From Clostridia bacterium (GTDB lineage: Bacteria > Bacillota > Clostridia > Oscillospirales > CAG-272): a stretch of DNA of 34,507 nucleotides. Every line of letters begins with the position of its first letter. The first letter of the stretch is position 1. Made by a program: the position numbers and the translations under genes. Shown piece after piece: positions 11,616 to 33,930 of the stretch. Location: positions 1-34,507 of the forward strand of contig JAFUPK010000010.1 in the NCBI GenBank assembly GCA_017481265.1. The letters run 5' to 3'. Under the pieces are notes generated by a model. The model made no database searches. It was not told the origin of the DNA and was given only the letters and a program-made list of their open reading frames with translations.

Positions 11616-11643
11616 CCCCCCTTTGTATTAAACAAAGGGGGGT
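11616..11643. repeat. Target-site hairpin, left copy (repeat copy B)
   Basis: A 28-bp direct repeat of 11879-11906, identical. It is itself a hairpin: CCCCCC-TTTGT paired with ACAAA-GGGGGG. It abuts the outer end of the element at 11644. Neither strand has a clear T-tract directly after it. Confidence 0.85.
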
Positions 11644-11877
11644 CAGACTACTGACAAACCCTGTGCCAAAGCACAGGGTTTGTCAAATTAAACAAAAACT
11701 AAATCTAAAGTTAAAGGAGATGCGCGGTCTGCGGACCGCTTTTCGGACGAATAAGGGGTATTTCGCGCCTTGCGAGGCGCGATTCAGGGCTCTGCCCTAA
11801 AAACCCGCGACCTTTCGAGAAAGGTCGATCAAAGCTTTTGGGCATTTTGACAACGTGAAACCTTTGTCAGCAAACTG
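11644..11877 (-). repeat. Structured mobile-like repeat, copy B
   Basis: A 234-bp full copy read on the minus strand. It begins CAGTTTGCTGACAAAGG at 11877 and ends with TGTCAGTAGTCTG at 11644, giving terminal inverted repeats CAG-NNN-GCTGACAAA. Internal hairpins on this strand: H1 AGGGC aga GCCCT, H2 CGCGCCT cgca AGGCGCG (11764-11781), H3 GCGGTC cgca GACCGC (11724-11739) and the terminal long stem around ACAAACCCTGTGC. It lies between the convergent HgdB-like and GH123-like genes. Confidence 0.92.
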
Positions 11878-11878
11878 C

Positions 11879-11906
11879 CCCCCCTTTGTATTAAACAAAG
11901 GGGGGT
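11879..11906. repeat. Target-site hairpin, right copy (repeat copy B)
   Basis: Identical 28-bp partner of 11616-11643, separated from the element end by one extra C. It lies 11 bp beyond the stop codon of the GH123-like gene and is probably its original terminator stem. Confidence 0.85.
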
Positions 11907-11917
11907 ATTATCATCGT

Positions 11918-13555
11918 TCAGCTCATCATCTCGCCAATACGGCGCCTTACGTTTTCAATGTATTCCCTGCCGGGCAAGTAACGGTCAAAGGCAAGTCCTC
12001 CGTCAATGCCTTCATCTATAACGCGCAGTACAGCCTCCCGTCCGTAACGTGCCTCAGCCGCCTCAAGTGCGCGTATGTCGCAAAGTGCCTCGTAAAATGC
12101 CCGCAGACGCAGAGACGGAACAGCATCTCCGTTTTCACCGGGATATACGGAGAAGGCATCCCCTGCAGGAGCAAAATAGTCTCCGTCAGTTACAGTATAT
12201 GGGTCAACGCTGTAGCGTGAATACTGACTCTTGTAGAAGTTAAATCCCCAGTGCAAAAAGCCGGTGCATCTCGCCTTCCACATCTGGAATCCTATAACAC
12301 GCACACGTGAAAGCGGCATAGCGATATACCTGTTTGACACCTCCGAGCTTTGGCTGCAGCAATAGTACACCCAAAGTCCCTCCGGTATATGGCGAAGAAA
12401 ATCTCCTGCGTGATCCGTTCCCGGGATCGGCTTTTTGCAGATGCCCTTGGTGTAGAACTTCACATCCGAAAGGGCGTCCGCCACGATATACCCGTCAAGC
12501 AGATCGCTGACCGCCTCGGTAGCCGAGCGGTAGCTTTCCTCCTGCTCATCGGAGGGCTCATCGGAAATGTGGAATATGCACCTTTGATCAAGCCCACGAT
12601 CTCTCATATGTCCGAGGAATGCTTCAAGGAAGGAACGCAAAAAGGTAATGTACTCGGCGCTTCCCGAGTCAGTTTCCCAGCCGAATACGCGCTTTTGCTC
12701 GCCGTTCACACTTGCCATGACCTTGGGTGCGTGGTATGCTCCCCACTGAGTGAACAGATGGGATATCTCGAAATACTCAACACCCTCGTCAAGAGCCATA
12801 TCGCACCAGCGGTCAAGCTTTTCAAAGCCAAAGTGCCAACTGCCGTTTTCTAAAAACACGTCAACAAGCTGTACCGTAAGCCGTTCTCCACCCACCCGGG
12901 TGTCAAGGGGAGGGGTAAACACAGGTGTATACAGCGCATTTATTCCGTTTTCCACAGCCGTGCGTACCCATCGGCGAAGCAGACCAAAATGCTCATCGGA
13001 CAGAGCAGGTACACCGTAATACTCGGCAATGCAGTCCGCGTGAAGTATCTGCATAACGCAGGTCTTTTGGTGAGGAATAGCCGCTTCAAGCACCTTGAAG
13101 TCAAGCTTTTCCGTGACAGACTGCGACACTTCCTCATCCTTGGTGCAAAGAGTCAGCGAAAGGCTGTGTTCACCCGGGCAAAGGTCGGAAAGCTCGATGC
13201 GAAGCATGGTAAGCCCGCGCTGGGGAGCAAAAAGGAGAGTGTCCTCGTTTATCTCCGTCATAATATCGGGATATACTCCCGGCTCCTTTGACATATAGTC
13301 ATCGTCGTTCCATGTGGGATAACAGGGCACGCGGACGGGAACTGTGTCTATTCTGTAAAGGCGCGCTTTTCCACAATCAGCGGAAAGTGTCAAGGTCACA
13401 CCTGTTTTGAGAAAGGCATCCGTGTCACAAAAAACAGCGTGAACAGCAAATGTCTCTCCCGAAAAGATTGGGTACGGGGCGTAGTCCTTCACATCCTTCA
13501 TGGTGTGACATGAAAGAAACTTATCAAGGGGAGATGTGAATTTAAGCTCAAGCAT
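11918..13555 (-). CDS. GH123-like glycoside hydrolase (DUF4091)
   Basis: The 545-residue protein has an N-terminal beta-sandwich-like region and a C-terminal DUF4091/GH123 catalytic domain (about residues 160-545). The adjacent acid pair in HISDEPSDEQ matches the Asp-Glu pair used for substrate-assisted catalysis in GH123 N-acetyl-beta-galactosaminidases. Other family blocks are YFEISHLFTQWGA and RVIGFQMWKARCTGFLHWGFNFY. No signal peptide is visible, so it probably acts in the cytoplasm on imported sugars. Substrate is inference from the family. ATG at 13555 has GGAG six bases upstream; an in-frame ATG at 13567 lacks one. A lipoprotein gene lies 87 bp upstream on the same strand. Confidence 0.85.
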   Translation of the reverse strand: MLELKFTSPLDKFLSCHTMKDVKDYAPYPIFSGETFAVHAVFCDTDAFLKTGVTLTLSADCGKARLYRIDTVPVRVPCYPTWNDDDYMSKEPGVYPDIMTEINEDTLLFAPQRGLTMLRIELSDLCPGEHSLSLTLCTKDEEVSQSVTEKLDFKVLEAAIPHQKTCVMQILHADCIAEYYGVPALSDEHFGLLRRWVRTAVENGINALYTPVFTPPLDTRVGGERLTVQLVDVFLENGSWHFGFEKLDRWCDMALDEGVEYFEISHLFTQWGAYHAPKVMASVNGEQKRVFGWETDSGSAEYITFLRSFLEAFLGHMRDRGLDQRCIFHISDEPSDEQEESYRSATEAVSDLLDGYIVADALSDVKFYTKGICKKPIPGTDHAGDFLRHIPEGLWVYYCCSQSSEVSNRYIAMPLSRVRVIGFQMWKARCTGFLHWGFNFYKSQYSRYSVDPYTVTDGDYFAPAGDAFSVYPGENGDAVPSLRLRAFYEALCDIRALEAAEARYGREAVLRVIDEGIDGGLAFDRYLPGREYIENVRRRIGEMMS

Positions 13556-13642
13556 AGTAGTCTCCATTCAAACTATGGTTGCATAAAAGTCGCGGCTTTC
13601 CAAACGAGATTTAAACTTCTCGCCGGCACCTATAATAGCCGA

Positions 13643-14458
13643 TTATTCTATTATTTCTATGGGCTCCGCAGTCACGGGACAGTTTCTGACATCAAGAATG
13701 TGTTCATAGGAGACCTTCTCCAGATTCGGAAGCAGATCAAGGGATGAAAGATCAAGCCCGTCCTCACCCACAAAATGATCTATGGTGCAGAACATTTCGA
13801 AGTGCTCTGCCAGCATTTCTTTTTCTCGTTCACTAATAGCAGACTCCAAAACAACGATCGCTCCCACCTCCTTGGTTATGGGAAAAGCCGTGAGCATTGA
13901 CTGCTTGGCTTCCTCGGTAAGTCCGGGGGCTTCAGGATTTATGTATTCATAATAAGACATGAACGTTAACTTCATAAAATCGAAGTCATTCGCATTCATG
14001 CCGTTTATCACAAGCCCCGGATCCGCTTCAAAGCGATCACTGATATCTTCTAAAGCCCCACTGTAGCTTTTTTCATATCTGTCAACGCGAATGTATCCTT
14101 TGCCGATGCATATTGCGTAAAAATCGCTTCCGTTGATGGCGGCATCTATAACCTGCTTGCCATCCTTTACACCAATGCTTTCGATAGTAATGGTCTCTAC
14201 GGACTCGATCATACCGTCAGTCAGCTCTCCGCCGACCTCAACGCCGTGGTATGCGCGGATAGCCTCAAGAATGATATCGGGAAGCTCATCTTCTGCCTTC
14301 TCGGCAAGCTCTCCATGTACATCCTTTACCTCTTCATTGCTTTCGGCAGTAGTATCAGCCTTGCTCTCAGCATCGATCCTTTCCGAATCTCCCTTCGCGC
14401 ATGAATACAGAGAAATAACGGTAACAAGGGCAAGTAATAACGCAAATAATCTTTTCAT
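13643..14458 (-). CDS. Putative lipoprotein of unknown function
   Basis: The 271-residue protein begins with a lipoprotein signal peptide (MKRLFALLLALVTVISLYSC), with the lipobox cysteine at residue 20. An acidic serine/glutamate-rich linker (~20-55) is followed by a folded domain rich in alternating charged and hydrophobic residues. I do not recognise the domain. The start is 14 nt after AGAAAGG, which is long. It lies between thrS, whose terminator precedes it, and the GH123-like gene; no promoter of its own is clear, so read-through is possible. Confidence 0.75.
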   Translation of the reverse strand: MKRLFALLLALVTVISLYSCAKGDSERIDAESKADTTAESNEEVKDVHGELAEKAEDELPDIILEAIRAYHGVEVGGELTDGMIESVETITIESIGVKDGKQVIDAAINGSDFYAICIGKGYIRVDRYEKSYSGALEDISDRFEADPGLVINGMNANDFDFMKLTFMSYYEYINPEAPGLTEEAKQSMLTAFPITKEVGAIVVLESAISEREKEMLAEHFEMFCTIDHFVGEDGLDLSSLDLLPNLEKVSYEHILDVRNCPVTAEPIEIIE

Positions 14459-14490
14459 TTTGTAAAACCGTGCCTTTCTTAAATAAATTC

Positions 14491-14537
14491 AAAAAATACC
14501 AAAGCAGGAGCTGACCATAATGTTCAGCTCCTGCTTT
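14491..14537 (-). terminator. thrS terminator
   Basis: A 14-bp stem (AAAGCAGGAGCTGA and its complement at 14524-14537, loop of 9) is followed on the minus strand by GGTATTTTTTG. Confidence 0.85.
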
Positions 14538-14553
14538 TTCGCATGAAATAAAA

Positions 14554-16494
14554 TTATCTCTTCTTTTCCGCGACCTCAGAGAGGAGCTTTGCCTTGAAAT
14601 CACAAAGGGACATTACTCCGCCTTCGCCTTCGACGCGTGCGCGGACGGAAACAGATTCGCTGTTCATCTCGTTCTCGCCTACGATAACGATATAGGGAGT
14701 CTTTTCAAGCTGAGCCGCGCGGATCTTGTACTTCATGGTGTCCGTGCCAAGATCAGCCTCAACGCGGAGTCCCGCATCTGCAAGAGTCTGTCTGACCTTG
14801 TCTGCGTAATCGTTGAACGCCGTGGATACGGGGATGACCGTGACCTGATTCGGAGACAGCCACAGCGGAAGGGCGCCTGCGTACTTCTCAAGAAGAAGAG
14901 CAAGTGTACGCTCATAGCATCCCATGGATGTTCTGTGGATGATATAGGGGGTCGTCATAGAATTGTCGCGGTCAACATACTCCATACCGAACTTCTTCGC
15001 AAGGAGCATATCTATCTGGATGGTTACGATAGTGTCCTCCTTACCGAACACGTTCTTGCACTGGATGTCAAGCTTCGGTCCGTAGAAGGCAGCCTCGTCG
15101 ATGCCGATGGTGTAGTTCTCGCGGCCGAGAAGATCGTCAAGAAGCTCGCCCATAACAGCCTGAGCCTCGTCCCACTGCTCGGGAGTACCCTCGTACTTTG
15201 ACGTATTGTTGGGATCCCACTGAGAGAAGCGGAATGTGCAGTCCTCCCAGAGACCGAGAGTCTCAAGGCAGTATCTTGCAAGCTCAAGGCAGCCCTTGAA
15301 CTCCTCAGCAAGCTGATCGGGACGGAGAACGAGGTGTCCCTCAGAGATGGTGAACTGGCGGACACGGATAAGACCGTGCATCTCACCGGAGTCCTCGTTG
15401 CGGAAGAGAGTGGAGGTCTCGCCAAGTCTCATGGGAAGCTCTCTGTAGGAGCGCTTCTTATTGAGGAATACCTGATACTGGAAGGGACAGGTCATAGGAC
15501 GGAGAGCGAAGCATTCCTTGGTCTCGTCGTAAGGATCGCCGATGACGAACATACCGTCGAGGTAGTGATCCCAGTGGCCGGAGATCTTGAAGAACTCACG
15601 CTTACCCATAAGGGGAGTCTTTGTAAGGAGGTAGCCGCGGCGCTGTTCCTCATCCTCGATCCATCTCTGGAGAAGCTGGATAACGCGGCTTCCCTTGGGA
15701 AGCATAATGGGAAGTCCCTGACCTACGGTGTCGACTGTGGTGAAGAAGCCGAGCTCGCGGCCGATCTTGTTGTGGTCACGCTTGCGTGCTTCCTCGATCT
15801 GCTCAAGGTGAGCCTTTAGAGCATCCTTATTCGGGAAGGCTGTACCGTAAACACGGCAGAGCATCTTCTTTGTGGAATCACCTCTCCAGTAAGCACCTGT
15901 ACATGAGGTGAGCTTGAACGCCTTGATAGCGCCTGTGGAGAAGAGGTGGGGACCTGCGCAGAGGTCAACGAACTCACCCTGCTTATAGAAGGAGATGACC
16001 GCATCCTCGGGAAGGTCACGGATAAGCTCTACCTTGTAGGGCTCGTCACGCTCTTCCATGAAAGCGATAGCTTCCTCTCGGGGGAGAGTGAATCTTTCAA
16101 GCTTTGCGTTAGCCTTGATGATCTTCTTCATCTCAGCTTCGATAGCGGGAAGATCATCGGGAGTGAGTGCGGGGGTGATGTCGAAGTCGTAGTAGAAGCC
16201 CTCGTCGATAGCGGGACCGATAGTGAGCTTAGCTGTGGGGTAGAGAGTCTTTACAGCCTCAGCGAGAACGTGAGAAGCTGTGTGGCGGAAGACCTTTGCG
16301 CCCTCTGCATCAGCAAAGCTGAGAAGGGAGATCTCCGCATCGGCTTCGATAAGGTGAGTCATGCCGACGACGTTGCCGTTGACCTTAGCGGCAATAAACT
16401 CACGGGAAACGGGAGCGACACTTGCGCAAGCATCGTAGACAGTTACGGGAGCATCGAAGGAGAGCTCTGCGCCGTTAAAAAGTACCTTGATCAT
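14554..16494 (-). CDS. thrS: Threonine-tRNA ligase
   Basis: The 646-residue enzyme charges tRNA-Thr with threonine in the cytoplasm. Domain order is standard: TGS (residues ~1-60, VLFNGAELSFDAPVTVYDA), the editing domain with HTASH at ~73, the class II catalytic core with motif 2 (TSTLFRNEDSGEMHGL) and RPMTCPFQYQVF, and a C-terminal anticodon domain (PNQVTVIPV onward). Length matches bacterial ThrRS. ATG has AAGGAAGG at the usual distance. Expression is expected to respond to uncharged tRNA-Thr through the T-box leader directly upstream. Confidence 0.98.
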   Translation of the reverse strand: MIKVLFNGAELSFDAPVTVYDACASVAPVSREFIAAKVNGNVVGMTHLIEADAEISLLSFADAEGAKVFRHTASHVLAEAVKTLYPTAKLTIGPAIDEGFYYDFDITPALTPDDLPAIEAEMKKIIKANAKLERFTLPREEAIAFMEERDEPYKVELIRDLPEDAVISFYKQGEFVDLCAGPHLFSTGAIKAFKLTSCTGAYWRGDSTKKMLCRVYGTAFPNKDALKAHLEQIEEARKRDHNKIGRELGFFTTVDTVGQGLPIMLPKGSRVIQLLQRWIEDEEQRRGYLLTKTPLMGKREFFKISGHWDHYLDGMFVIGDPYDETKECFALRPMTCPFQYQVFLNKKRSYRELPMRLGETSTLFRNEDSGEMHGLIRVRQFTISEGHLVLRPDQLAEEFKGCLELARYCLETLGLWEDCTFRFSQWDPNNTSKYEGTPEQWDEAQAVMGELLDDLLGRENYTIGIDEAAFYGPKLDIQCKNVFGKEDTIVTIQIDMLLAKKFGMEYVDRDNSMTTPYIIHRTSMGCYERTLALLLEKYAGALPLWLSPNQVTVIPVSTAFNDYADKVRQTLADAGLRVEADLGTDTMKYKIRAAQLEKTPYIVIVGENEMNSESVSVRARVEGEGGVMSLCDFKAKLLSEVAEKKR

Positions 16495-16539
16495 GATGAT
16501 ACCTTCCTTTTCTACCTATAAAGGTGGGATAAAAATGAG

Positions 16540-16779
16540 AGAAATAAAAAATCCCTCCTGTCAGAGGGCTTGCACCCAGAGACAGCTGCGTAATGCTTCT
16601 GTCGGGGTGCTGATTATTCATCCGCACGGTTCCACCCGAGCTTTTAACTTAATTTAGAATATTAGCCGAGTAATACAGGTCGGCAGGGTGGTACCGCAAA
16701 AGCTTCCGCGAAGGCGGTCACAGCACGCAAAAAGCGCCGCCTCTCTCTGGCACGGAACGTCTAAAGCGACGTGTCCCAT
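16540..16779 (-). promoter_or_regulatory. T-box leader of thrS
   Basis: On the minus strand the leader contains the T-box motif GGGTGGAACCGTGCGG (16637-16622). An AGAGAG motif and a GCTG motif upstream match the distal part of stem I. CACCCC after the T-box can pair either with GGGTG of the T-box (antiterminator) or with GGGTGC further on (competing fold). A short stem CCCTC/GAGGG followed by ATTTTTT (16568-16546) is the terminator. The specifier codon is not certain; an ACC in GGTACCACC is the likely threonine specifier. Confidence 0.9.
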
Positions 16780-16785
16780 AGGAAT

Positions 16786-16814
16786 AGTATATCACAGTAA
16801 AACTCCCGTGTCAA
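16786..16814 (-). promoter_or_regulatory. Promoter for thrS T-box transcript
   Basis: -35 TTGACA (16809-16814) and -10 TATACT (16786-16791) are 17 bp apart on the minus strand. The start near 16779 gives a leader of about 285 nt. Confidence 0.85.
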
Positions 16815-16884
16815 GAGGGAAAAACAGATGATTTTATCCGTAAATAAAATAAAAAAATACGTAAGCTGTTTTATTTCTTCTCTC

Positions 16885-16913
16885 TTGACATTCTGTTTTC
16901 TCCATGGTATCAT
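16885..16913 (+). promoter_or_regulatory. Promoter for PHP gene
   Basis: -35 TTGACA (16885-16890) and -10 TATCAT (16908-16913), 17-bp spacer. The ~95-nt 5' UTR holds a small hairpin GTCTGC/GCAGAC (16943-16957) with no T-tract. Confidence 0.7.
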
Positions 16914-17012
16914 ACTATCGTAAATACAAAAGTCCGATTTTTGTCTGCTTCGCAGACACGCGCTTGTTTCATTAAGTATTGTACAGTCATAGGCTGAATG
17001 GAGGTCAACATT

Positions 17013-17963
17013 ATGATAATTCGTCAAGCTGCTTTTGAAAATATGAACGGCAAGCGCCACCTGAAGGGTGCGCTACATTGCCACTCAAGCCGTTCCGACG
17101 GTGACTCCTCTGCCGAAGAGGTGGTCAGCCGCTACTACCGCGACGGCTTTGACTTCATCGCTCTCACAGACCACTTCCGCTACAACCGCGAAAGCCCCGT
17201 CCCCCATCTTCCCATCACAGTCATTCCCGCAGCGGAGGGAGGCGCTGATATTAACGACGGCCTTGGACACGGCTTCCGCTGCTATCACACAGTCCTGCTC
17301 GGAAAAAACGACGAGACCAACGGATTTGCTCAGGGCGAGCGGATCCCAACGGGAAATGATCTTTCTCCCACAGGTAAGATCACCTGCGCCGAGGACTATC
17401 AGCCCTATCTCGACATGATCCATGAAAAGGGAAACATCACCTTCTACTGTCATCCCGAGTGGAGCTCCACTCCCGCAAGGCTCTTTGAGAATATGAAGGG
17501 CGACTTTGCCATGGAGATCAGAAACACAGACTGCGTCCACAGCTGTAACATGGACCGCGACTGCCCTTACTGGGATGAAGTCCTCGGTCAGGGCAAGCGT
17601 CTTTGGGGAGTTGCCGTTGACGACATCCACAGGCTTAACATGGCAGACCGAAGCTGGGTCATGGTTGGCGCCGACAACAACGTAAGCGACATTGTCGATG
17701 CACTTGCAAGCGGAGCCTTCTATTCCTCCTTCGGGCCCTCAATTTACGATTTCTATGTTGAGGACGGCAAGGCTCACATCGTCTGCGACACGGTAAACAG
17801 AATCGAATTCATGGCAGACCGCCATCCCACATCGGTATTCCGTGATCCCAACGGTGTCACTGAGGCTGAGTTTAACCTTAATGACAGCTATTTCTACATC
17901 CGCGCCTGCGTTACCGATTCCTACGGCAGAAGCGCATGGACAAATCCTATATTCCTTGATTAA
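17013..17963 (+). CDS. PHP-domain metallohydrolase (CehA/McbA-like)
   Basis: The 316-residue protein has the metal-binding motifs of the polymerase-and-histidinol-phosphatase fold: LHCHSSRSDGD (about residues 22-32), FIALTDHF and a later ITFYCHPEW. These enzymes hydrolyse phosphoester or related bonds with two or three metal ions; the substrate is unknown. No signal peptide is visible. ATG at 17013 has GGAGG eight bases upstream; an upstream in-frame ATG at 16998 overlaps that ribosome site and is less likely. The gene is divergent from thrS and ends two bases before the flank of repeat copy C. Confidence 0.88.
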   Translation: MIIRQAAFENMNGKRHLKGALHCHSSRSDGDSSAEEVVSRYYRDGFDFIALTDHFRYNRESPVPHLPITVIPAAEGGADINDGLGHGFRCYHTVLLGKNDETNGFAQGERIPTGNDLSPTGKITCAEDYQPYLDMIHEKGNITFYCHPEWSSTPARLFENMKGDFAMEIRNTDCVHSCNMDRDCPYWDEVLGQGKRLWGVAVDDIHRLNMADRSWVMVGADNNVSDIVDALASGAFYSSFGPSIYDFYVEDGKAHIVCDTVNRIEFMADRHPTSVFRDPNGVTEAEFNLNDSYFYIRACVTDSYGRSAWTNPIFLD

Positions 17964-17964
17964 C

Positions 17965-17977
17965 TAATATGACCGCT
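17965..17977. repeat. Short 5' target duplication of repeat copy C
   Basis: TAATATGACCGCT matches 18222-18234 exactly. Unlike copies B and D, this 5' flank lacks the rest of the hairpin. The last seven bases (GACCGCT) are also the element's own start. Confidence 0.75.
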
Positions 17978-18221
17978 GACAAAGGTCTTGCGCTGACAAA
18001 ATGCACAAAAGTTTTGATCGACCTTTTTTAAAAGGGCGCAGGGTCTTAGGACGGAGTCCCGAGTCGCCGCTACTTCGCTAAACGAAGTAGGGCAGAGGGC
18101 GAAAATCCCCTTATTCGTCCAAAAAGCGACCCGCAGGTCGCGCATCCCCTTTTACTTTTGATTTAGTCTTTGTTTAATTTGACAAACCCTGTGCTTTGGC
18201 ACAGGGTTTGTCAGCAAGCTG
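17971..18221 (+). repeat. Structured mobile-like repeat, copy C
   Basis: A 251-bp copy on the plus strand. It has GACCGCTGACAAAGG at the start, GATCGACC, H1 (GGAC gga GTCC), H2 enlarged by an inserted hairpin CTACTTCG/CGAAGTAG (18070-18090), H3 GCGACC cgca GGTCGC, and a terminal stem of about 15 bp around ACAAACCCTGTGC. It ends TGTCAGCAAGCTG. It lies between the convergent PHP and upp genes. Confidence 0.92.
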
Positions 18222-18253
18222 TAATATGACCGCTTGCCGTACGGCAAGCGGTC
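18222..18253. terminator. Palindromic hairpin flanking repeat copy C, 3' of upp
   Basis: A perfect 26-bp palindrome (18228-18253, GACCGCTTGCCG and its complement around TA) lies six bases past the upp stop codon. It begins with the 13-bp target duplication. On either strand the following sequence is only modestly T-rich (AATTTCTT on plus). Confidence 0.65.
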
Positions 18254-18259
18254 AATTTC

Positions 18260-18901
18260 TTATTTTGTTCCGAAAAGTCTGTCTCCGGCATCTCCGAGAC
18301 CGGGAAGGATATATCCGTTCTCGTTAAGGCATCTGTCAAGGGTAGATACAAAGATGTGTACATCGGGATGAGCCTCTGCAACTCTTGCTACACCCTCGGG
18401 AGCACCGATGACGGACATAAACTTTATGTTCTTGACGCCGCGTGCCTTGATTCGCTCAATGGCATCACAAGCACTTCCGCCGGTGGCAAGCATGGGGTCA
18501 ACTATGAGCACAAGCTTGTCCTCTATTCCGTCCGGAAGCTTGCAGTAATACTCATAGGGCTCAAGGGTCTCCTCGTTACGGCAAAGACCGATATGTCCCA
18601 CTCTTGCTGAGGGGAAGAGCACGTGGATACCGTTCACCATGCCAAGTCCCGCACGTAGGATGGGCACGATAACTATGGAGTTATCCTTGACCATGTGCTG
18701 AGTGCATACCTCAAGGGGAGTCTTGACCTCCACCTCAACGGTGGGCACACCCTCTCGCAAGCACTCAAAGGTCATGAGAGTCGTGATCTCCTCGATGAGC
18801 TCACGAAATTCCTTCATGCTGGTCTTTTCATTTCGGAGAATAGCGATCTTGTGATTTACAAGAGGATGATTGAATATGGTCACATTTTCGTAGTTTTTCA
18901 T
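18260..18901 (-). CDS. upp: Uracil phosphoribosyltransferase
   Basis: The 213-residue enzyme converts uracil and PRPP to UMP (pyrimidine salvage, cytoplasm). Diagnostic features are the PRPP loop VDPMLATGGSACDAI, RAGLGMVNGI, and the C-terminal uracil-binding region with LGDAGDRLFGT. Length matches the family (about 208-213). ATG at 18901 is supported by AAAGGCACGGTCA upstream and by family length; the frame is open further upstream but has no better site. It follows uraA by 73 bp and is surely co-transcribed, giving uptake plus salvage of uracil. Confidence 0.97.
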   Translation of the reverse strand: MKNYENVTIFNHPLVNHKIAILRNEKTSMKEFRELIEEITTLMTFECLREGVPTVEVEVKTPLEVCTQHMVKDNSIVIVPILRAGLGMVNGIHVLFPSARVGHIGLCRNEETLEPYEYYCKLPDGIEDKLVLIVDPMLATGGSACDAIERIKARGVKNIKFMSVIGAPEGVARVAEAHPDVHIFVSTLDRCLNENGYILPGLGDAGDRLFGTK

Positions 18902-18974
18902 TTTTTGACCGTGCCTTTCTCTGATTTGTGATGTTTTCCGTTTTCCGAAGATAAGGAAATGCCGACCGGATCTG

Positions 18975-25660: not shown

Positions 25661-25690
25661 GCATTATCATCCCGAAAGAAGGCAACAACC

Positions 25691-26629
25691 GTGAATTTTA
25701 CATCACTTCTCAGTACCATCGCAACTCTCGCACTCCTTATGGCGACAGGCTTCGGTCTGCGCCGCACGGGAATAATCGACAATGTATTCTCAAAAAATCT
25801 GTCCACCCTCATAGTAAGAGTAGGACAGCCAATGCTTATTATCTCGTCACTCATTTCACTTGAGTATTCTGCTGAAAATCTGCGACGCGGACTTATTGCC
25901 ACAGCTCTCAGCTTCTGCATTCACGCAGGTCTCGGCTTATTTGCCCATTTCGCCGTCAAAGGCTTCAAGAACCCCGACGAGCGAAAGGTAAGCGAATTTT
26001 CCGTAATGTTTACCAACTGCGGCTTTATCGGATTTCCTATAATCGAAAGCCTTTACGGTAAGGATGGACTTTTCTGCGGCGCATTTTATCTGGTCGGCTT
26101 CCATCTGTTCATCTGGACTTGGGGAATGGCTATCCTCTCCCGAGGAAGAGACGATATCAAGCTGACACCCCGTAAGATATTCATAAATTACGGTACCATC
26201 CCCTGTCTTATCGGTTTTCTTTTATTCCTGTGCCCCTTCCGCATCCCCGATTTTCTTGTGATGACAGCGGATTATCTTGCAAGTCTGGCGACCCCTATCT
26301 CCGTGCTCATTACCGGTGCACTTATTGCTACGGGAACCTTCCGTGATCTGTTTGGACGTCTGGGTAACTACATGGTCTGTCTTTTAAGGCTCATCGTGCT
26401 TCCCATGATCGTGTGCGTTGTGCTGAAGCTGTGCGGGCTTAGTGAGTTCCTCATCGTTTTCGGAACGGTCATGGCGGCCATGCCCTCTGCATCGGTCATT
26501 ACCATGTTTGGTGAGATGTACGGGATCATGCCCGGCTTTGCATCACGTCTTGTCGGCGTTACAAGTCTGTTGTGCGTAGCAACGCTTCCGCTGATGGTCG
26601 CATTCGCAGGCTTTATTGCAAATCTATGA
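25691..26629 (+). CDS. AEC family transporter (auxin-efflux-carrier-like permease)
   Basis: The 312-residue protein has ten hydrophobic segments, the expected pattern for AEC transporters, and motifs VRVGQPMLIISSL and FTNCGFIGFPI in the first half. Substrates in bacteria are usually organic acids such as malate or malonate, not auxin; the one here is unknown. The start is GTG with AGAAGG upstream; the first in-frame ATG lies inside the first membrane segment. It is the last gene of the operon and is followed by a terminator. Confidence 0.9.
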   Translation: MNFTSLLSTIATLALLMATGFGLRRTGIIDNVFSKNLSTLIVRVGQPMLIISSLISLEYSAENLRRGLIATALSFCIHAGLGLFAHFAVKGFKNPDERKVSEFSVMFTNCGFIGFPIIESLYGKDGLFCGAFYLVGFHLFIWTWGMAILSRGRDDIKLTPRKIFINYGTIPCLIGFLLFLCPFRIPDFLVMTADYLASLATPISVLITGALIATGTFRDLFGRLGNYMVCLLRLIVLPMIVCVVLKLCGLSEFLIVFGTVMAAMPSASVITMFGEMYGIMPGFASRLVGVTSLLCVATLPLMVAFAGFIANL

Positions 26630-26640
26630 CAAAAAAACAG

Positions 26641-26677
26641 AGCCACACTTCGCAAAAATGAAGTGTGGCTAAATTTT
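26641..26677. terminator. Bidirectional terminator between AEC and fakA
   Basis: An 11-bp stem AGCCACACTTC/GAAGTGTGGCT (26641-26651, 26660-26670) is followed by AAATTTTTA on plus and by CTGTTTTTTT on minus. Confidence 0.85.
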
Positions 26678-26687
26678 TATATTTTTA

Positions 26688-28391
26688 TCAGCCCTCGGCT
26701 ACAAAAATGAAGGGATATACGTCCTGTCCGCCCTCGGCGAGATATACCTCAACATCGGGGAACTTCTCGGCGGCATAGCTTTCGATAACGGCGCAGTCCT
26801 GCTCAGTCGCATCTGCTCCCACAAATACCGTCAGCATAAACTTATCCTCATCCTCAAACATCTTGTCAAGAAGTCCGCAGGCGGTGTCGGTCATTGAAGG
26901 ACGTGAAACAAGCATCTGCTTGCCAACAAAGCCTATGTAATCACCGTTCTTGATGGTAACACCGTTAAGCTCGGCATCGCGAACCGCAATAGAAACGCTT
27001 CCCGTGGTCACGTTTTCCATAGCCGCGATAAGTCCCGCTTCGATCTCTTCGGGATCCTCAGAGGTAGAGTCAAGGGAAGAAAGCGCAACATAGCCCGAGC
27101 CGATGTCGCGGCTGGGGATCACGTGGATGACGCTGCCCTCATATATCTCAGCCGCCTGGCTTGCGGCAAGGATTATATTACCGTTGTTGGGGAACACAAA
27201 GATGTGATCAGCATTGGTCTTGTCAAATGCCTCAAGGAAGTCGGATGTGGAGGGATTCTTGGTCTGTCCGCCGTCCACTACGTAGTCAGCTCCGAGATCA
27301 AGGAACAGCCTTTCGATGCCCGATCCGCTTGCAACAGCAATATATCCAAAGGGACGTCTCTCTCTCTGAATACTCTCAGCCTTAACCTCAGCCTTTTTCT
27401 CCTCCTTGCTTTCGGGAGCGATCTCGCTGTGCTGAACTGACATATTCTCGATCTTGACAGTGAGGAATTCGCCGAATCTGCGGCAGAACTCAAGAACACA
27501 CTCTGGTGTCATGGTGTGAACGTGTATCTTGACCACGCTTCCCGTCTTGAAGGAAACGATGGAATTTCCGATATTCTCTAAAAATTCCGTGATCACGGCA
27601 GGATCAAAGGTCTCGGGATCGACCTTGCAGTTCTGAAGCTGAAGAAGAAGCTCAGTGCAATAGCCGTAGGTCATAACGCTGTCAGGACCAAAGGCGGAAA
27701 GATCGACCTGTTGATTTACAGCAGATACGGGAGGCGCAAGCTCCACCTTTTCACCGCGGATCGCCTTCATAAAGCCCTCAAATATATAAAGAAGTCCTGC
27801 TCCGCCGCTATCGACCACGCCTGCCTCCTTGAGAACGGGCAGTATCTCGGGAGTATGCTCGAGTGACAGCTTCATCTCACTGATCACTGATGCAAAGAGC
27901 ATACCGACAGTACAGCCGAGCTCGACCTTTTCAACAGCGTTCTCAACTCCCTCGCGTGCAACCGTAAGGATAGTACCCTCCGCAGGCTTCATGACCGCCG
28001 CATACGCCTGCTTTACGCCAAGCTTCAGCGCGCTGCAGAGAGTGTCCACATCGGCTCTTGTGCATTTTTCAAGGCCGCGTGCCATTCCCGCGAACATCTG
28101 GGAAAGGATAACGCCGGAGTTGCCGCGTGCGCCGAGAAGCATTCCTCTCGAAACTGCAGATGCTACCTCAGAGATGCTTTCGGACTCCACCTTTGAGAGA
28201 GCCGCCGTACCGCCCTCAACAGTCATGCTCATGTTATCACCTGTATCTCCGTCGGGAACAGGGAACACATTAAGGTCATTGACCTCTTCCGCATTGAGTC
28301 TCAGGTTTGCAGCGCCCGCTCTTACCATTTCGGCAAAAAGCACACCGTCTATTTCAGTAAGATCAAATTTATTTGCTTCTGTGTTATTCAT
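26688..28391 (-). CDS. fakA: Fatty acid kinase catalytic subunit (DAK2 domain, YloV)
   Basis: The 567-residue protein has an N-terminal DhaL/DAK2 kinase domain (~20-205) with the metal-nucleotide motif NVFPVPDGDTGDNM, plus MLLGARGNSGVILSQ. A middle domain and a C-terminal DAK-phosphatase-like domain follow (about 340-567). FakA phosphorylates fatty acids bound to a FakB/DegV partner, feeding exogenous or released fatty acids into phospholipid. The gene is 33 bp downstream of degV on the same strand, consistent with that pairing. Function is established for the family, inferred here. Confidence 0.93.
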   Translation of the reverse strand: MNNTEANKFDLTEIDGVLFAEMVRAGAANLRLNAEEVNDLNVFPVPDGDTGDNMSMTVEGGTAALSKVESESISEVASAVSRGMLLGARGNSGVILSQMFAGMARGLEKCTRADVDTLCSALKLGVKQAYAAVMKPAEGTILTVAREGVENAVEKVELGCTVGMLFASVISEMKLSLEHTPEILPVLKEAGVVDSGGAGLLYIFEGFMKAIRGEKVELAPPVSAVNQQVDLSAFGPDSVMTYGYCTELLLQLQNCKVDPETFDPAVITEFLENIGNSIVSFKTGSVVKIHVHTMTPECVLEFCRRFGEFLTVKIENMSVQHSEIAPESKEEKKAEVKAESIQRERRPFGYIAVASGSGIERLFLDLGADYVVDGGQTKNPSTSDFLEAFDKTNADHIFVFPNNGNIILAASQAAEIYEGSVIHVIPSRDIGSGYVALSSLDSTSEDPEEIEAGLIAAMENVTTGSVSIAVRDAELNGVTIKNGDYIGFVGKQMLVSRPSMTDTACGLLDKMFEDEDKFMLTVFVGADATEQDCAVIESYAAEKFPDVEVYLAEGGQDVYPFIFVAEG

Positions 28392-28424
28392 GATAACTCC
28401 GAATCTGTATTTTTTCGTTTAGCC

Positions 28425-29291
28425 TTATCTGTTGTTGCCCACGAAGAAGAGTGCGAGGGTTCCGGGGCCTGAATGAGAGCCGATAACGGGTCCTACGGGT
28501 GTGATGATCTCGACCTCAACGCCGAATCTCTCCTTGATCTGAGCTGCAAGTATCTCTGCATCAGCAAGACAGTCGCCGTGGCTGATATAAACAGGACCTG
28601 ATGAAGAGTCAATGGCAAGCTCCTCCATCTTGTCTGCGAGAGCCTTGATAGCCTTCTTTCTTCCGCGGACGTTGAACATATTTATAAGCTTTCCGTTGTC
28701 GTCGACGTGGAGAACGGGCTTGATTCCGATGGCAGTACCGACGAATGCGGCAACGGCACCGACTCTTCCGCCTCTGTGGAGGAACTGAAGGTCGTCAACG
28801 GTGAACCAGTGACAGATGTTAAGTCTTGTATCCTCGACGTATTTTGCGGTCTCTTCAAGAGTTGCACCTTCCTCAAGCTTTTTCATTGCGAGAAGCACCA
28901 GCATACCGTAGCCTGTTGATGCGCAAAGAGTATCTGCAACAACGACCTTTCTGTCGGGATAAACCTCGGAAAGCTCAACTGATGCAAGGCGCGCTGAGTT
29001 GAAGGTGGTGCTGAGTCCCGAAGAGAAACCGATGTAGAGAACATCACGTCCCTCTTTCAGCTCTGCTTCAAAGCTCTGCTTGAAGTCCTCAACGTTAACG
29101 GCAGAGGTCTTGGCATCTCTGCCCTCTCTCAGGTTGCGGTAAAATTCCGCTGTATCAATATCGTTATTTCTGTACTCCTCCGGGGAATCCACAAAGCGGA
29201 ATCGAAGATCAATGCATTTAATGCCGTGGAGGTCAAGTACCTCCTTCGGCGTATCGCATGATGAGTCAACAAAAACGGTATAGTTATTCAT
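28425..29291 (-). CDS. degV: DegV family fatty-acid-binding protein (FakB)
   Basis: The 288-residue protein begins YTVFVDSSCD, the DegV phosphoryl/lipid-binding start, and has TSAVNVEDF, YIGFSSGLSTTFNSA and FLHRGGRVG, which line the lipid tunnel and carboxylate site. Length is normal. It holds the fatty acid for FakA. ATG at 29291 has AAAAGGAG; an upstream in-frame ATG at 29330 has none. The promoter is at 29336-29364. Divergent from a membrane XRE regulator that may control it. Confidence 0.95.
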   Translation of the reverse strand: MNNYTVFVDSSCDTPKEVLDLHGIKCIDLRFRFVDSPEEYRNNDIDTAEFYRNLREGRDAKTSAVNVEDFKQSFEAELKEGRDVLYIGFSSGLSTTFNSARLASVELSEVYPDRKVVVADTLCASTGYGMLVLLAMKKLEEGATLEETAKYVEDTRLNICHWFTVDDLQFLHRGGRVGAVAAFVGTAIGIKPVLHVDDNGKLINMFNVRGRKKAIKALADKMEELAIDSSSGPVYISHGDCLADAEILAAQIKERFGVEVEIITPVGPVIGSHSGPGTLALFFVGNNR

Positions 29292-29335
29292 ACGTGTCTC
29301 CTTTTTATCGGGATAAGCGTTATAATTCATCCTAT

Positions 29336-29364
29336 ATTATACACTAAAATCCCTCTCCAGTCAA
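29336..29364 (-). promoter_or_regulatory. Promoter for degV-fakA
   Basis: On the minus strand, -35 TTGACT (29359-29364) and -10 TATAAT (29336-29341) with a 17-bp spacer. Confidence 0.8.
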
Positions 29365-29390
29365 GGGAAGCGGCAAACTTGCTTGTAGAA

Positions 29391-29534
29391 GGTAGCATCT
29401 CGAGCGGTAGAATCGCTGTTTTTTCGCTCTACCGATGGTAGAGTCATTAAAAATCGCCGTTGCAATGTGCTGAAATATATGCTATAATATATTGAAACCA
29501 TGCGTTTTTCGCAAAATCTACCGTCGGTAGAATC
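29391..29534. promoter_or_regulatory. Operator array in the degV/XRE divergent region
   Basis: GGTAGNRTC occurs four times on the plus strand (29391, 29406, 29437, 29526). Two are parts of perfect palindromes: TCTACCGATGGTAGA (29428-29442) and TCTACCGTCGGTAGA (29517-29531), each 6+3+6. They bracket the XRE promoter, 89 bp apart. The nearest half-sites reach to 27 bp from the degV -35. Confidence 0.8.
29460..29488 (+). promoter_or_regulatory. Promoter for XRE regulator gene
   Basis: -35 TTGCAA (29460-29465), 17-bp spacer, -10 TATAAT (29483-29488). Palindromic operators lie on both sides. Confidence 0.75.
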
Positions 29535-29564
29535 ATCTTTCATCACAAAACGGGAGGTACGCTC

Positions 29565-30182
29565 ATGGATGAGCTTAAAAATATAATCGCAGAAAACATT
29601 CAGCTTCTGAGACGTGACGCGGGCATGACCCAGGCGTCTCTCGCCGAGAAGCTCAACTACACCGATAAGGCGGTGTCGAAATGGGAGCGCGGAGAGTCCG
29701 TGCCCGATGTCGCCGTGCTCCGCGACATTGCAGAGCTCTTCGGTGTAACCGTGGACTACCTGCTCCACCGAGAGCACGAGCGCAAGGCAGAGATCATCCC
29801 CATACACTCAAAGAAGAGACGCGTGTCAAACCACGCCTCGATCACCTGCATGAGCATCATTCTCGTCTGGCTTCTTGCCACATTTGCCTTCGTTCTCATC
29901 GACATCATCACACCGGGAATAACCACACACTGGCTCGCCTTTGTGTATGCAGTACCCATGTCAATGATAGTCTGGCTCATATTCAACTCCATCTGGTTCT
30001 GCAGACGCCGCAATTTCCTCATCATTTCCTTGCTCATGTGGACAGTTCTTGCTTCCGTCTACCTCACCCTCCTTCCCTTCAACGCCAACCTTTGGCAGAT
30101 ATTCGGGCTGGGCATACCGGGTCAGGCGATCATCTTCCTTTGGTCACGTCTCAGAAGCGCATCGCCCAAAGAGGATGAATAA
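29565..30182 (+). CDS. XRE-family regulator with C-terminal transmembrane domain
   Basis: The 205-residue protein has an N-terminal HTH_3 domain (about residues 8-62: NIQLLRRDAGMTQASLAEKL, YTDKAVSKWERGESVPD) and about four hydrophobic segments (~90-195). Membrane-tethered XRE proteins of this layout are common in Firmicutes and probably sense an envelope or lipid cue. A GGGAGG site precedes ATG. The palindromes flanking its promoter suggest autoregulation and possible control of degV-fakA. The link to lipid metabolism is inference from position. Confidence 0.9.
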   Translation: MDELKNIIAENIQLLRRDAGMTQASLAEKLNYTDKAVSKWERGESVPDVAVLRDIAELFGVTVDYLLHREHERKAEIIPIHSKKRRVSNHASITCMSIILVWLLATFAFVLIDIITPGITTHWLAFVYAVPMSMIVWLIFNSIWFCRRRNFLIISLLMWTVLASVYLTLLPFNANLWQIFGLGIPGQAIIFLWSRLRSASPKEDE

Positions 30183-30189
30183 TTCGGGG

Positions 30190-30223
30190 AAATATCGTTT
30201 TTATAAATAAATATACGATATTT
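30190..30223 (+). other. Inverted repeat after XRE gene
   Basis: A 9-bp inverted repeat AAATATCGT/ACGATATTT (30190-30198, 30215-30223) with a 16-bp loop starts seven bases past the stop codon. It could be a weak terminator or an operator site upstream of the ABC promoter. Confidence 0.45.
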
Positions 30224-30249
30224 ATTCAAAAATAAGTGCACAATGCCAC

Positions 30250-30278
30250 TTGACAAAGCATAATTATATATGTATACT
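30250..30278 (+). promoter_or_regulatory. Promoter for amino-acid ABC operon
   Basis: -35 TTGACA (30250-30255) and -10 TATACT (30273-30278) with a 17-bp spacer, 32 bp before the start codon. Confidence 0.85.
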
Positions 30279-30310
30279 GTATGTATCTTTTTACAGAAAG
30301 GTGAAAAATC

Positions 30311-31162
30311 ATGAAAAAGTTCCTTAGCATTATGGCTCTCATGCTCGCTCTCGTGCTCACAATGGCAGCTTTCACAGCTTGCGGCAGCACCAAGGACGGC
30401 GACGAGACAACAGCAGGCACAACAGCTGCTGAAAACAACGCAGCTACCGGCACAGACACAGACGCTGACACAGGCGCCGACACAGAAGGTACCACAGAGC
30501 TCACCACCATCAAGATGGGCACAAACGCAGCATTCCCTCCTTATGAGTACAAGGAAGGCGATGCTTTCGTAGGTATCGATGTTGAGATCGCAGAAGCTAT
30601 CGCGAAAGAGCTCGGCGCTACTCTTGAGATCGTTGACATGGAGTTTGATTCCATCATCACCTCCGTCAACCAGGGCGAGGTAGACTTCGGTATGGCAGGT
30701 ATGACCGTTACCGACGAGAGACTCCTTGAGGTAGACTTCACCTACAGCTATGCTACAGGTGTTCAGTCCGTTATCGTGCTTGACGGCTCCGACATCAAGT
30801 CCCTTGACGATCTCGAGGGCAAGAAGATCGGTGTTCAGCTCGGCACCACCGGCGACATCTACGCTTCCGACGACTACGGCACTGAAAACGTTACCAAGTA
30901 CGGCAAGGGTGCTGACGCTGTTATCGCTCTCAAGGGCGGCGACGTTGACGCTGTTATCATCGACAACGAGCCCGCAAAGGCATTCGTTGCTGAGAACGAG
31001 GGTCTTGCTATCCTTGATACCGAATACGCTGTAGAGGACTACGCTATCGCTGTTAAGAAGGGCAACACAGAGCTCCTCGACGACATCAACGCAGCTCTCG
31101 AAAAGCTCACCGAGGACGGCACCATCGACGCTATCATCGGCAAGTACATCAAGGCTGAGTAA
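30311..31162 (+). CDS. Polar amino-acid ABC transporter substrate-binding lipoprotein
   Basis: The 283-residue protein has a lipoprotein signal peptide ending in AFTAC (Cys ~24), a threonine/alanine/aspartate-rich linker (to about 60), and an SBP_bac_3 domain with TNAAFPPYEY, FVGIDVEIAEAIAKELG and DFGMAGMTVTDERL. It would be tethered to the outer leaflet and would deliver an amino acid to the permease. Codon use is strongly biased (GCT, GAC, ATC), as expected for a highly expressed gene. The strong hairpin after it may raise its mRNA level relative to the rest of the operon. Confidence 0.95.
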   Translation: MKKFLSIMALMLALVLTMAAFTACGSTKDGDETTAGTTAAENNAATGTDTDADTGADTEGTTELTTIKMGTNAAFPPYEYKEGDAFVGIDVEIAEAIAKELGATLEIVDMEFDSIITSVNQGEVDFGMAGMTVTDERLLEVDFTYSYATGVQSVIVLDGSDIKSLDDLEGKKIGVQLGTTGDIYASDDYGTENVTKYGKGADAVIALKGGDVDAVIIDNEPAKAFVAENEGLAILDTEYAVEDYAIAVKKGNTELLDDINAALEKLTEDGTIDAIIGKYIKAE

Positions 31163-31177
31163 TCTTTAAAAAAGCTT

Positions 31178-31212
31178 CACAACTTCAAAGGGGCTCCCCC
31201 TTTGAAGTTGTG
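31178..31212 (+). terminator. Strong hairpin after binding-protein gene
   Basis: A perfect 16-bp stem with a 3-nt loop (31178-31193 and 31197-31212). It is followed by TTCGTCTT, with only a weak T-tract, so it probably attenuates or stabilises the 3' end without fully terminating. Confidence 0.75.
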
Positions 31213-31223
31213 TTCGTCTTAAA

Positions 31224-31264
31224 CCGTTATCAGTTTTCCGATCGTTTCGGGAAAGTGATAACGG
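31224..31264 (+). other. Second hairpin in ABC operon gap
   Basis: Outer stem CCGTTATCA/TGATAACGG and inner stem TTTCCGA/TTCGGGAAA. No T-tract follows. Confidence 0.7.
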
Positions 31265-31348
31265 CTTAATTCTGTAAAGCTGTAACACATATAGTCCTTC
31301 TGCATAATCAGACGAAAGCTTTCGATGACAAAGCCTTTCGCACATTAC

Positions 31349-31513
31349 TCAAAGAAAAGGAATGGTCATAAGTTTGAAAATTAAGTACGCTTAAAGCGTA
31401 CGTCAGCTTTTTCAAACCCATTTGTGCCTTGCCGCCAAAAGGCGGGCGGCATTTTTCTCAGCCTCAAGGCTGAGAAAAAACGTCACAAATCAAAGAAAGG
31501 AATGGTCATAAAT
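31349..31513 (+). repeat. Duplicated 24-bp translation leader flanking two large stem-loops
   Basis: TCAAAGAAAAGGAATGGTCAT at 31349 recurs with one base fewer at 31490, directly before the permease ATG. Between them are stem-loop SL1 (31372-31417, GTTTGAAAA with TTTTTCAAAC and an inner GTACGCTT/AGCGTAC) and SL2 (31420-31490, ATTTGTG/CACAAAT enclosing two inner hairpins). After the first leader copy a TTG frame encodes only six residues (31374-31394). Confidence 0.7.
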
Positions 31514-32896
31514 ATGACAAAGAAAAGAATAATCGCCATAGTGATCGCCGCCGTTATCCTACTCGGCGCCGTGGCAGGTCTTATAATCAGCATCAAAAAG
31601 CAGGGCGAGGCTTCCGTCAGCATAGATATCCCGGAAGCTGAAGCACTGGTCAATGAGACCTTTGACGCCATGGCCGTCACCGCTCCGCTGAAGCTTATCT
31701 CCGATGCGAACAGTATCACCGTCAGCGACGTATCCTACGGAACCGAAAAGGATGTCATCCTCTCATGCACCGTCTCCACCGTGGATATTTACAGCGTGGT
31801 ATCTCCCCTCCTCGATGAGTTTCTCAGCTCCGACGTGAAGAAGCCGAACGGTATGTTCAAGTCCGCACTCAATTTCAAGCAGGAGTTTGAGGACAGACTC
31901 TGCGAGCTTATTGAAGGTGCTGAGAGTGTCACAAAGGATGTGGATATCTTCTTCTACGAGATCGACGGCACGCTTACTCTTTATGCTGAGAACAGCATCG
32001 TTGACACAGTCTACGGAGGTGCGGTAAAGCTTGCTGACGAGGTCATGAAGAGAACGACCTACACCGTCACCGAAAACGGCGAGCAGGTGGAAAAGCCCAT
32101 CGAGACCAACAACGTAAACAAGGGCTTTGTATCCTGCGTCCAGATGCGCTATACCGCAGAAAAGCCCGATGTTTCCGCACCTATAGTACGTACATGGAAC
32201 AACCTCAAGGCAGACTTCAAAAAGAACTTTATCGACCACGACCGCTGGCTCACCATAGTAAACGGTCTCTGGACCACCATCCGTCTCACTGTATTCTCTC
32301 TCCTTATCGGTATCGTTATCGGCTTTATCGTGGCATTTGTCCGCTGTACATACGATAAGCTCACGCGCCGCGGCCCCATCCTCAGCGTATCGAACTTCAT
32401 CTGTAATCTCTATCTCACCGTCACCCGCGGAACGCCTGTTGTGGTGCAGATAATGATAATCTACTTCGTTATGTTCATGCCTCTCGGCGTTGATAAGTTC
32501 ATCGCCGCTGTCATCTGCTTCGGTCTCAACTCAGGCGCATACGTTGCCGAGATCGTACGTGGCGGCATCATGTCCATCGACAACGGACAGACAGAAGCGG
32601 GCCGAAGCCTCGGCTTCAACTATATGCAGACCATGTACCACATCGTGTTCCCACAGGCGTTCAAGGCAGTACTCCCTGCCCTTGCCAATGAGTTCGTAGT
32701 CCTCCTCAAGGAGACCTCCATCGCCTTCTACATCGGCCTCGGAGACCTTATGTACGCAGGAAACGCTATCCGCGCGGCTACATACTCTGCCTTCATGCCC
32801 CTTGTTACCGTAGCAATTATCTACCTCATTATGGTCCTCGTGCTGTCGAAGCTCGTAAGTATTCTTGAAAGGAAGCTCAGAAACAATGAACGATAA
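31514..32896 (+). CDS. Amino-acid ABC permease with large N-terminal extracytoplasmic extension
   Basis: The 460-residue protein has an N-terminal membrane anchor (~4-28), an extracytoplasmic region of roughly 200 residues with no family I recognise, then a HisM/GlnP-type permease domain (~255-455). The permease part has [26 protein letters not shown], and the ATPase-contacting EAA loop [21 protein letters not shown]. Typical permeases of this class have about 220 residues, so the extension nearly doubles the length. It might help dock the binding protein. ATG at 31514 has AAAGGAATGGTCA upstream. It overlaps the ATPase gene by 11 bp. Confidence 0.9.
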
Positions 32897-33626
32897 TGTA
32901 ATAATCCGTGTGGAAGACCTCCACAAGTGCTTCAAGGGCTCGATCCACGCGCTTAACGGCATCGACGTTGAGGTCAAGCGCGGCGAGGTCGTGGTCATCA
33001 TCGGTCCTTCGGGATGCGGAAAATCCACCTTCCTTCGTTCGCTCAACCTTCTTGAGGAGCCTACAAGCGGACACATCTTCTTCGAGGGTACGGACATCAT
33101 GGATCGCAAGGTTGACATAAACCTTATGAGACAGAAGATGGGCATGGTGTTTCAGCAGTTCAACCTGTTCCCCCACATGACGATCCTTAAAAATATGACC
33201 ATCGCGCCCATGAAACTTCTTAAAAAGACCAAGGAGGAAGCTGAACAGCGCGCCCGCGAGCTTCTCCAAAAGGTCGGTCTTGCCGACAGAGCCGACGCTT
33301 ATCCCTCACAGCTCTCCGGCGGACAGAAGCAGAGAGTTGCCATCGTCCGTGCCCTTGCCATGAATCCCGATGTGCTTCTCTTTGATGAGCCGACGAGTGC
33401 CCTTGACCCCGAGATGGTCGGCGAGGTTCTTGACGTAATGAAGGATCTGGCACGTGAAGGCATGACCATGATCGTGGTCACACATGAGATGGGCTTTGCA
33501 CGCGAAATGGCAGACCGCGTTCTCTTCTTCGACGAAGGCAAAATTGCCGAGGAAGGCACCCCCGAGGAGCTTTTCGAAAATCCGAAGACTCAAAGAGCAA
33601 GAGACTTCCTAAGTAAGGTGCTTTGA
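32886..33626 (+). CDS. Amino-acid ABC transporter ATP-binding protein
   Basis: The 246-residue ATPase has Walker [10 protein letters not shown] (about residue 37-45), Q-loop FQQFNLFPH, signature LSGGQKQR, Walker [14 protein letters not shown] and H-loop VTHEMG. It powers the polar amino-acid uptake complex. ATG at 32886 lies inside the end of the permease gene and is preceded by AAAGGAAG, indicating translational coupling. The gene is followed by a hairpin and repeat copy D. Confidence 0.97.
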
Positions 33627-33644
33627 AAATTCAATAATAAAACA

Positions 33645-33668
33645 ATCTCCCGTTCAGATACGGAAGAT
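33645..33668 (+). repeat. Target-site hairpin, left copy (repeat copy D)
   Basis: A 24-bp stretch repeated with two changes at 33902-33925. It is the stem-loop CTCCCGT...TACGGAAG, flush with the element start at 33669 and lacking a T-tract. It follows the ABC ATPase gene by 18 bp. Confidence 0.85.
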
Positions 33669-33901
33669 TCAGGCCGCTGACAAAGGTCTTGCGCTGACAA
33701 AATGCACAAAAGTTTTGATCGACCTTTTTCAAAAGGGCGCAGGTTTTTAGGGCGGCGCCCTAAATCGCCCTCCGCAGAGGGCGAAATTCCCCTATTCGTC
33801 CAAAAAGCGACCCGCAGGTCGCGCATTCCTTTTACTTTTGATTTAGCCTTTGTTTAATTTGATAAACCCTGTGCTTTCGCACAGGGTTTATCATCAAGCT
33901 G
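33669..33901 (+). repeat. Structured mobile-like repeat, copy D
   Basis: A 233-bp full copy on the plus strand. It starts CAGGCCGCTGACAAAGG and ends ATCATCAAGCTG. Hairpins: H1 TTTAGGGC ggc GCCCTAAA (33746-33764), H2 CGCCCTC cgca GAGGGCG (33766-33783), H3 GCGACC cgca GGTCGC (33807-33822), H4 a 15-bp stem (33860-33893). Both neighbouring genes read in the same direction, so its sense orientation to the ABC operon is real. Confidence 0.92.
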
Positions 33902-33930
33902 TCTCCCGTTTAGATACGGGAGATTATTTA
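33902..33930 (+). terminator. Target-site hairpin, right copy (repeat copy D), with T-rich tail
   Basis: Stem CTCCCGT/ACGGGAG with loop TTAGAT, then ATTATTTATTT. This looks like the original terminator of the ABC operon, now separated from it by the element. Confidence 0.7.

Follow-up and report, generated by a model that had tools for sequence, protein, structure and literature searches.

Contig JAFUPK010000010.1 of the Clostridia bacterium assembly GCA_017481265.1, which was analysed over its whole length of 34,507 nucleotides (the window), carries four copies (A to D) of a short mobile element that lies at transcription terminators and duplicates their hairpins. It is very probable that this miniature inverted-repeat transposable element (MITE) was moved in trans by a transposase of the IS1182 family (ends close to CAGNNNGNNGACAAA) which chooses stem-loops as targets, the whole hairpin being duplicated and the length of the duplication being that of the hairpin. 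An earlier sequence-only reading of the window had held that the element matches no class that can be named. Its ends, target and duplication are instead those of a clade within the IS1182 family: its inverted ends are shared with IS1182 elements, and its choice of target and its duplication are the same as those of transposase-bearing elements. The window is one whole contig of a 171-contig, 2.50-Mb draft assembly, apparently assembled from a metagenome, which is 82.5% complete.

The four copies in the window were read directly from the sequence and by a repeat search, and the original observation proved real. Copy B, a divergent subtype on the reverse strand (11644-11877; ends CAGTTTGCTGACAAA and CAGACTACTGACAAA), has the same 28-bp hairpin on either side (11616-11643 and 11879-11906), a single extra C (11878) separating the element from the right one. 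Copy D, on the forward strand (33669-33901; ends CAGGCCGCTGACAAA and CAGCTTGATGATAAA), is enclosed by 24-bp hairpins at 33645-33668 and 33902-33925 which differ from each other at 2 positions. The reverse-strand copy A (1-145) is truncated by the contig start and adjoins a terminator hairpin at 146-166. Copy C, on the forward strand (17971-18221), is without its left terminal CAG, and its left side is a partial duplication of which 13 bp were kept (17965-17977): this leftover runs into the element end, and its letters recur at 18222-18234, in a right flank (18222-18254) that contains a complete hairpin at 18227-18254. According to the list of open reading frames (ORFs), each of the four copies is placed at the 3' end of a long ORF, with convergent ORFs on either side of B and of C, and no copy encodes a transposase, as had been noted before.

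Across the genome of the window, the end pattern GACAAAGGTCTTRYGCTGACAAAATG with at most 3 mismatches was found at 75 sites, against 0 for the reversed control, and the exact end motif CAGNNNGCTGACAAA gave 97 matches, again against 0 for its control. The general features of a MITE were all present, namely a length of about 200-300 bp, which is too small for a transposase gene, inverted ends, 75 end sites and a duplicated hairpin. Flanks were scored by script: of 73 distinct left ends, those whose copy also had a right end and 45 bp or more of flank were kept, which gave 52 copies, and the others were dropped. Copies A (no left flank) and B (missed by the script) are outside these 52, copy C is included with non-matching flanks, and one of the 52, located in L053, is truncated and was paired with a right end that is spurious. 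A stem of at least 7 bp within 12 nt of the element end was present on the left in 41 of the 52 copies, on the right in 49 and on both sides in 39, compared with 4/50 and 6/52 control stretches taken 60-110 bp away. The left and right flanks of the same copy matched each other (score of at least 14) in 31/52 cases, whereas only 2 of 2652 mispaired flanks did so. In 13 of the 52 copies the duplication is exact, directly abuts the element and reaches 12 bp or more; its length there is 16-31 bp, the 16-bp case being half a hairpin. T-tracts in the right flank and A-tracts in the left flank, each seen in 40/52 copies, are what is expected of terminators. The flanks of copies throughout the genome therefore support the earlier description of the element as mobile, non-autonomous, located at terminators and duplicating their hairpins.

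The genome also holds a second family of short elements, which shares these ends but not the interior (L112:1674-1929, L118:1760-2015, L119 and L121); the hairpin is duplicated in L118 and present only at the right side in L112, and one end is visible in L119 and L121. Paired hairpins also flank MITE copies in two other genomes, G003 (L040) and G032 (L138 and L139), which were read by eye, as the right-end pattern of the automatic re-scan was too loose; by eye, L137 has a hairpin at its left and a right end that is not clear. The MITE core without CAGNNNGCTGACAAA ends was found in other genomes as well (L041, L044, L144, L146, L147 and L149), and in L146, from a genome of the same genus (G006), it was seen by eye to have a GAAGACAAA-type end and a duplicated flanking hairpin.

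The two hairpins of a pair can also differ. When the left flank was compared with the right flank and with its inverse, 21 MITE copies were nearer to the direct and 12 to the inverse form; the same comparison for IS1182 copies gave 30 direct and 2 inverse. Inspection by eye showed that most of the 12 inverse-leaning copies differ merely through their A- and T-tracts, while in L002, L012 and L035 the flanking hairpins share their stems and have truly inverted loops, and L024, which is cut by a contig end, may have inverted loops too. Compensatory (paired) changes in the stem between the two hairpin copies were read by eye in L002, L012 and L018.

The IS1182 family was searched because IS1272, one of its members, has been published as targeting stem-loops. 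The protein encoded at locus L101 matched the NCBIfam model of the family (NF033551) with 469 bits (cut-off 270), as well as Pfam PF13751, PF05598 and PF01609; elements with these ends and duplications have transposases of the same family. The L101 element ends in TTCAGACTGAAGACAAAG, and a hairpin adjoins each side, the two being different. A relative on a viral contig (L151) has the same hairpin, AACTGGTATTGGTATTCACTAATACCAGTT, on both sides, and the same element with the same flanks occurs in Secundilactobacillus kimchicus (L154). The positions that do not vary among three transposases include D149, D275 and E402, which would, from the alignment, fit a DDE triad.

To see such elements in number, GTDB genomes were scanned with an alignment of three transposases, and the best 80 of 526 loci were taken, which is not a census. 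Most insertion sequence (IS) ends among these best 80 read CAGACTG[A/T]AGACAAAG; a first automatic search for inverted ends around transposase ORFs had returned chiefly chance pairs. Fifty-one non-repeat loci with both ends and at least 45 bp of flank were scored and 29 were dropped. Hairpins stand at both ends in 45 of these 51 transposase-bearing copies, compared with stems in 5/49 and 5/51 control stretches 60-110 bp away, and the flanks match in 32/51 as against 1 of 2550 mispaired flanks. In 30 of the 51 the duplication is exact and flush, with a length of 20-36 bp. Summed over these 30 cases, complementary or G-T pairs occupy 325 of the 335 mirror positions, which means that the duplicated segment is the hairpin itself.

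The ends of the MITE were also found beside transposase genes within its own bacterial family, as the sequence-only reading had suggested looking for. A relative of the three-transposase alignment is present in 56 of 395 genomes of this family, and PF13751 in 37/295, L101 being one of the PF13751 hits. At L238 and L241, CAGACCGCTGACAAA, the same letters as in many MITE ends, lies beside IS1182-related transposase genes, and its inverse lies at the right end of L242. An IS1182 element on an Aminobacter plasmid (L306, 41% identity) has perfect ends CAGACTGCTGACAAACCCC, the element ending CAGACTGCTGACAAAC, and an exact 20-bp hairpin duplication, AGGGCGGCAGATGCCGCCCT; in an Enterococcus casseliflavus plasmid element a 19-bp hairpin is duplicated, and no matching hairpin pair flanks the ISEfa7 copy of one plasmid. 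In a tree of 41 transposases, L306, L238, L241 and L242 form one group (98/93), whose neighbour is the G[A/T]AGACAAA group, although the position of L306, like those of L307, L236 and L240, is unsure owing to its long branch. The 32 rows with CAG ends group at 91/89, which is under the usual mark. As a contrast set, 12 other IS1182-type loci were scanned for GGGGCTGT-type ends, and both ends were found in four; hairpin duplication was seen in none of five relatives, namely four with GGGGCTGT-type ends and one ISCfr1 copy.

Empty sites in relatives, another check proposed at the outset, were found for a transposase-bearing element. The target of L186 in Butyrivibrio hungatei NK4A153 is free of the element and has one hairpin in Butyrivibrio VCB2006, XPD2002 and AE3009, where 160 bp through the one hairpin plus 7-19 bp of the right flank are 99% identical and the sequence beyond is divergent. 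L186 is the sole clean case among the five sites queried. For the MITE, the genus was searched with ten joined flanks, and from the hits 20 gene-matched places were fetched (9 for copy B, 7 for copy C, 2 for copy D and 2 for other copies). None of these 20 places contains the MITE as read by eye, a loose pattern giving scattered, chance-like matches, and in the eight that are easiest to read (L264, L267, L268, L274, L275, L277, L278 and L280) there is one terminator hairpin at the gene end. These eight are weaker evidence because their hairpins differ in sequence from those at the MITE sites.

Several results weigh against mobilisation by an IS1182 transposase. Matching flanks are lacking in 21/52 MITE copies and, by the same score, in 19/51 transposase-bearing copies, and 13 of the latter stand between two different hairpins, for which recombination between copies or misassembly would be our guess; L180 and L203 have no hairpin but short repeats of 6 and 8 bp, as read by eye. 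No IS1182 transposase was matched in the genome of the window (G000), where a helper copy may have been missed because the assembly is 82.5% complete. PF13751 is present in 0/12 genomes of the genus, and the genus has an IS1182 transposase in G005 alone, where it is decayed. No transposase-bearing copy with the MITE interior was noticed among the fetched loci, no dedicated search having been made. Furthermore, the evidence from L238, L241 and L242 concerns their ends, as each of these loci is either truncated at a contig end or shows just one end.

Unpaired end sites in the genome of the window were also inspected: in 13 stretches (L111-L123) that were read at their ends, with ORFs listed in L115 and L116 alone and no family search run, no transposase was seen by eye. 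The 2.5-kb interval of L053 was considered as an autonomous element and rejected, its content being one long ORF, glycyl-radical-enzyme-like by eye, and a truncated copy. In G005, the decayed IS1182 transposase gene (L108) lies directly after a terminator hairpin, and a possible IS1182 end (L272) lies at the place corresponding to copy B.

It might be supposed that the hairpin pairs are older than the element, tandem terminators having received insertions between them, or only such insertions having survived selection. Terminators are safe landing sites, and the 13 IS copies between two different hairpins, together with L101, are what such a history would leave. However, an exact hairpin copy directly abuts either end in 30 of the 51 IS copies, three genomes have the L186 site empty with a single hairpin, and the 20 gene-matched places in the genus are without the MITE, the eight easiest to read having one terminator hairpin each; we regard this explanation as very improbable. 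The opposite possibility, that the hairpins are part of the element and travel with it, draws on the few hairpins which recur at two loci (L008/L019, L019/L122 and L077/L123, and also the pair in L053), but this recurrence suggests recombination between copies or an assembly error. Since mispaired flanks almost never match (2/2652 and 1/2550), nearly every locus has a hairpin of its own, and travelling hairpins are less probable still.

An element of another family with long duplications, of the IS1202 or IS1634 type, would have duplicated the hairpin through a wide, fixed stagger. Such families do have long direct repeats, but the related transposase-bearing elements encode IS1182 transposases, no element with these ends and another transposase was seen, and the length of the duplication is not fixed: it varies over 20-36 bp in the 30 exact cases and is centred on the hairpin. 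We give this explanation hardly any credence. Group IIC introns also insert at terminators, and they are not known to duplicate the hairpin; such an intron was rejected, as the element has no Rfam match and is too short for a reverse transcriptase. Stem-loop replacement of the IS1272 type was likewise rejected, because the hairpin is retained on both sides. The sole match in the Rfam scan of the window was a 5S ribosomal RNA gene. The stretch 2966-3297 of the window contains a 5S rRNA gene and, behind it, a pair of 87-bp direct repeats (78% alike) as well as CAACAGCGGGTGCTTTTTTGTTTT, a terminator-like unit repeated in three copies.

Under mobilisation by an IS1182 transposase, the enzyme would pick a perfect or near-perfect stem-loop, mostly an intrinsic terminator, by its structure and not by its sequence. 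The two 3' ends of the element would be joined to the 5' feet of the stem-loop, one on each strand, and gap repair would then copy the whole stem-loop to both sides. Since the staggered cut would span the hairpin, structure would set the length of the duplication (20-36 bp in the 30 exact cases). Because of the symmetry of the target and the variable duplication length, recognition of an extruded hairpin or cruciform is proposed, with the strand chemistry just described as its likely course. In the product, the element comes after the first hairpin and the former downstream sequence, usually with its T-tract, after the second, so that the terminator would be restored after the element. Transcription would then run through the element and make it part of the 3' untranslated region, which fits the anatomy of copy D. 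The MITE itself, to go by its ends and flanks, would have been mobilised in trans by such a transposase. Given that the genome is incomplete, that no IS1182 helper was found and that many hairpin pairs have diverged (31/52 match), the MITE family may no longer be active.

A target duplication is ordinarily short, and its length is fixed by the transposase. ISfinder lists direct repeats of up to about 60 bp for IS1182, and its curators may know repeats like those described here. Among IS1182 members, ISPse1 and ISCaa15 are described, in the passages available, with 4-bp repeats, which differ from the whole-hairpin duplications here. It has been reported, in the available parts of two papers, that IS1272/TnSha1, an IS1182-family element of staphylococci, inserts at stem-loops that are frequently transcription terminators and share no consensus in primary sequence (PMC4923244, PMC5678879); the stem-loop is deleted or replaced in the process, and no duplication arises. 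Stem-loop targets are common to both, and the stem-loop is lost there and wholly duplicated here. IS1182 stem-loop targeting is treated in those two papers and not in the passages seen of PMC3281130, PMC3196728 and PMC10969869. In pathway b of their Fig 13, a hypothetical scheme, Wan et al. 2017 (PMC5678879) let the 3' ends attack the 5' feet of the stem-loops, whereby the whole stem-loop is duplicated. Within the literature found, ISfinder and subscription papers lying outside the search, this hypothetical branch is the sole mention of whole-hairpin duplication; what stands in the available text as a possibility without an example is represented here by dozens of cases and an empty site.

A duplication whose length follows the target hairpin suggests that the transposase reads the structure of its DNA target. 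A wider proposal can be made tentatively, and we think it somewhat more apt to fail than to hold: a broad IS1182 clade (here mostly Bacillota and one alphaproteobacterium) would measure DNA secondary structure and cut an extruded stem-loop or cruciform at its two feet; structure would then set the duplication and the terminator would be restored, and the pairs with inverted loops (L002, L012, L035 and perhaps L024) would be footprints of an exchange between extruded strands. Insertion behind a gene should do next to no damage, since the terminator is copied and not lost, and this could account for the tolerance of a small genome towards some 75 copies. For annotation, a signature is provided by identical terminators that directly abut CAGNNN...NNNCTG at either end. 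Within the IS1182 family, one kind of target would thus meet with opposite fates, being lost with IS1272 and duplicated with the clade described here, which raises the question of how the geometry of strand transfer decides between them.

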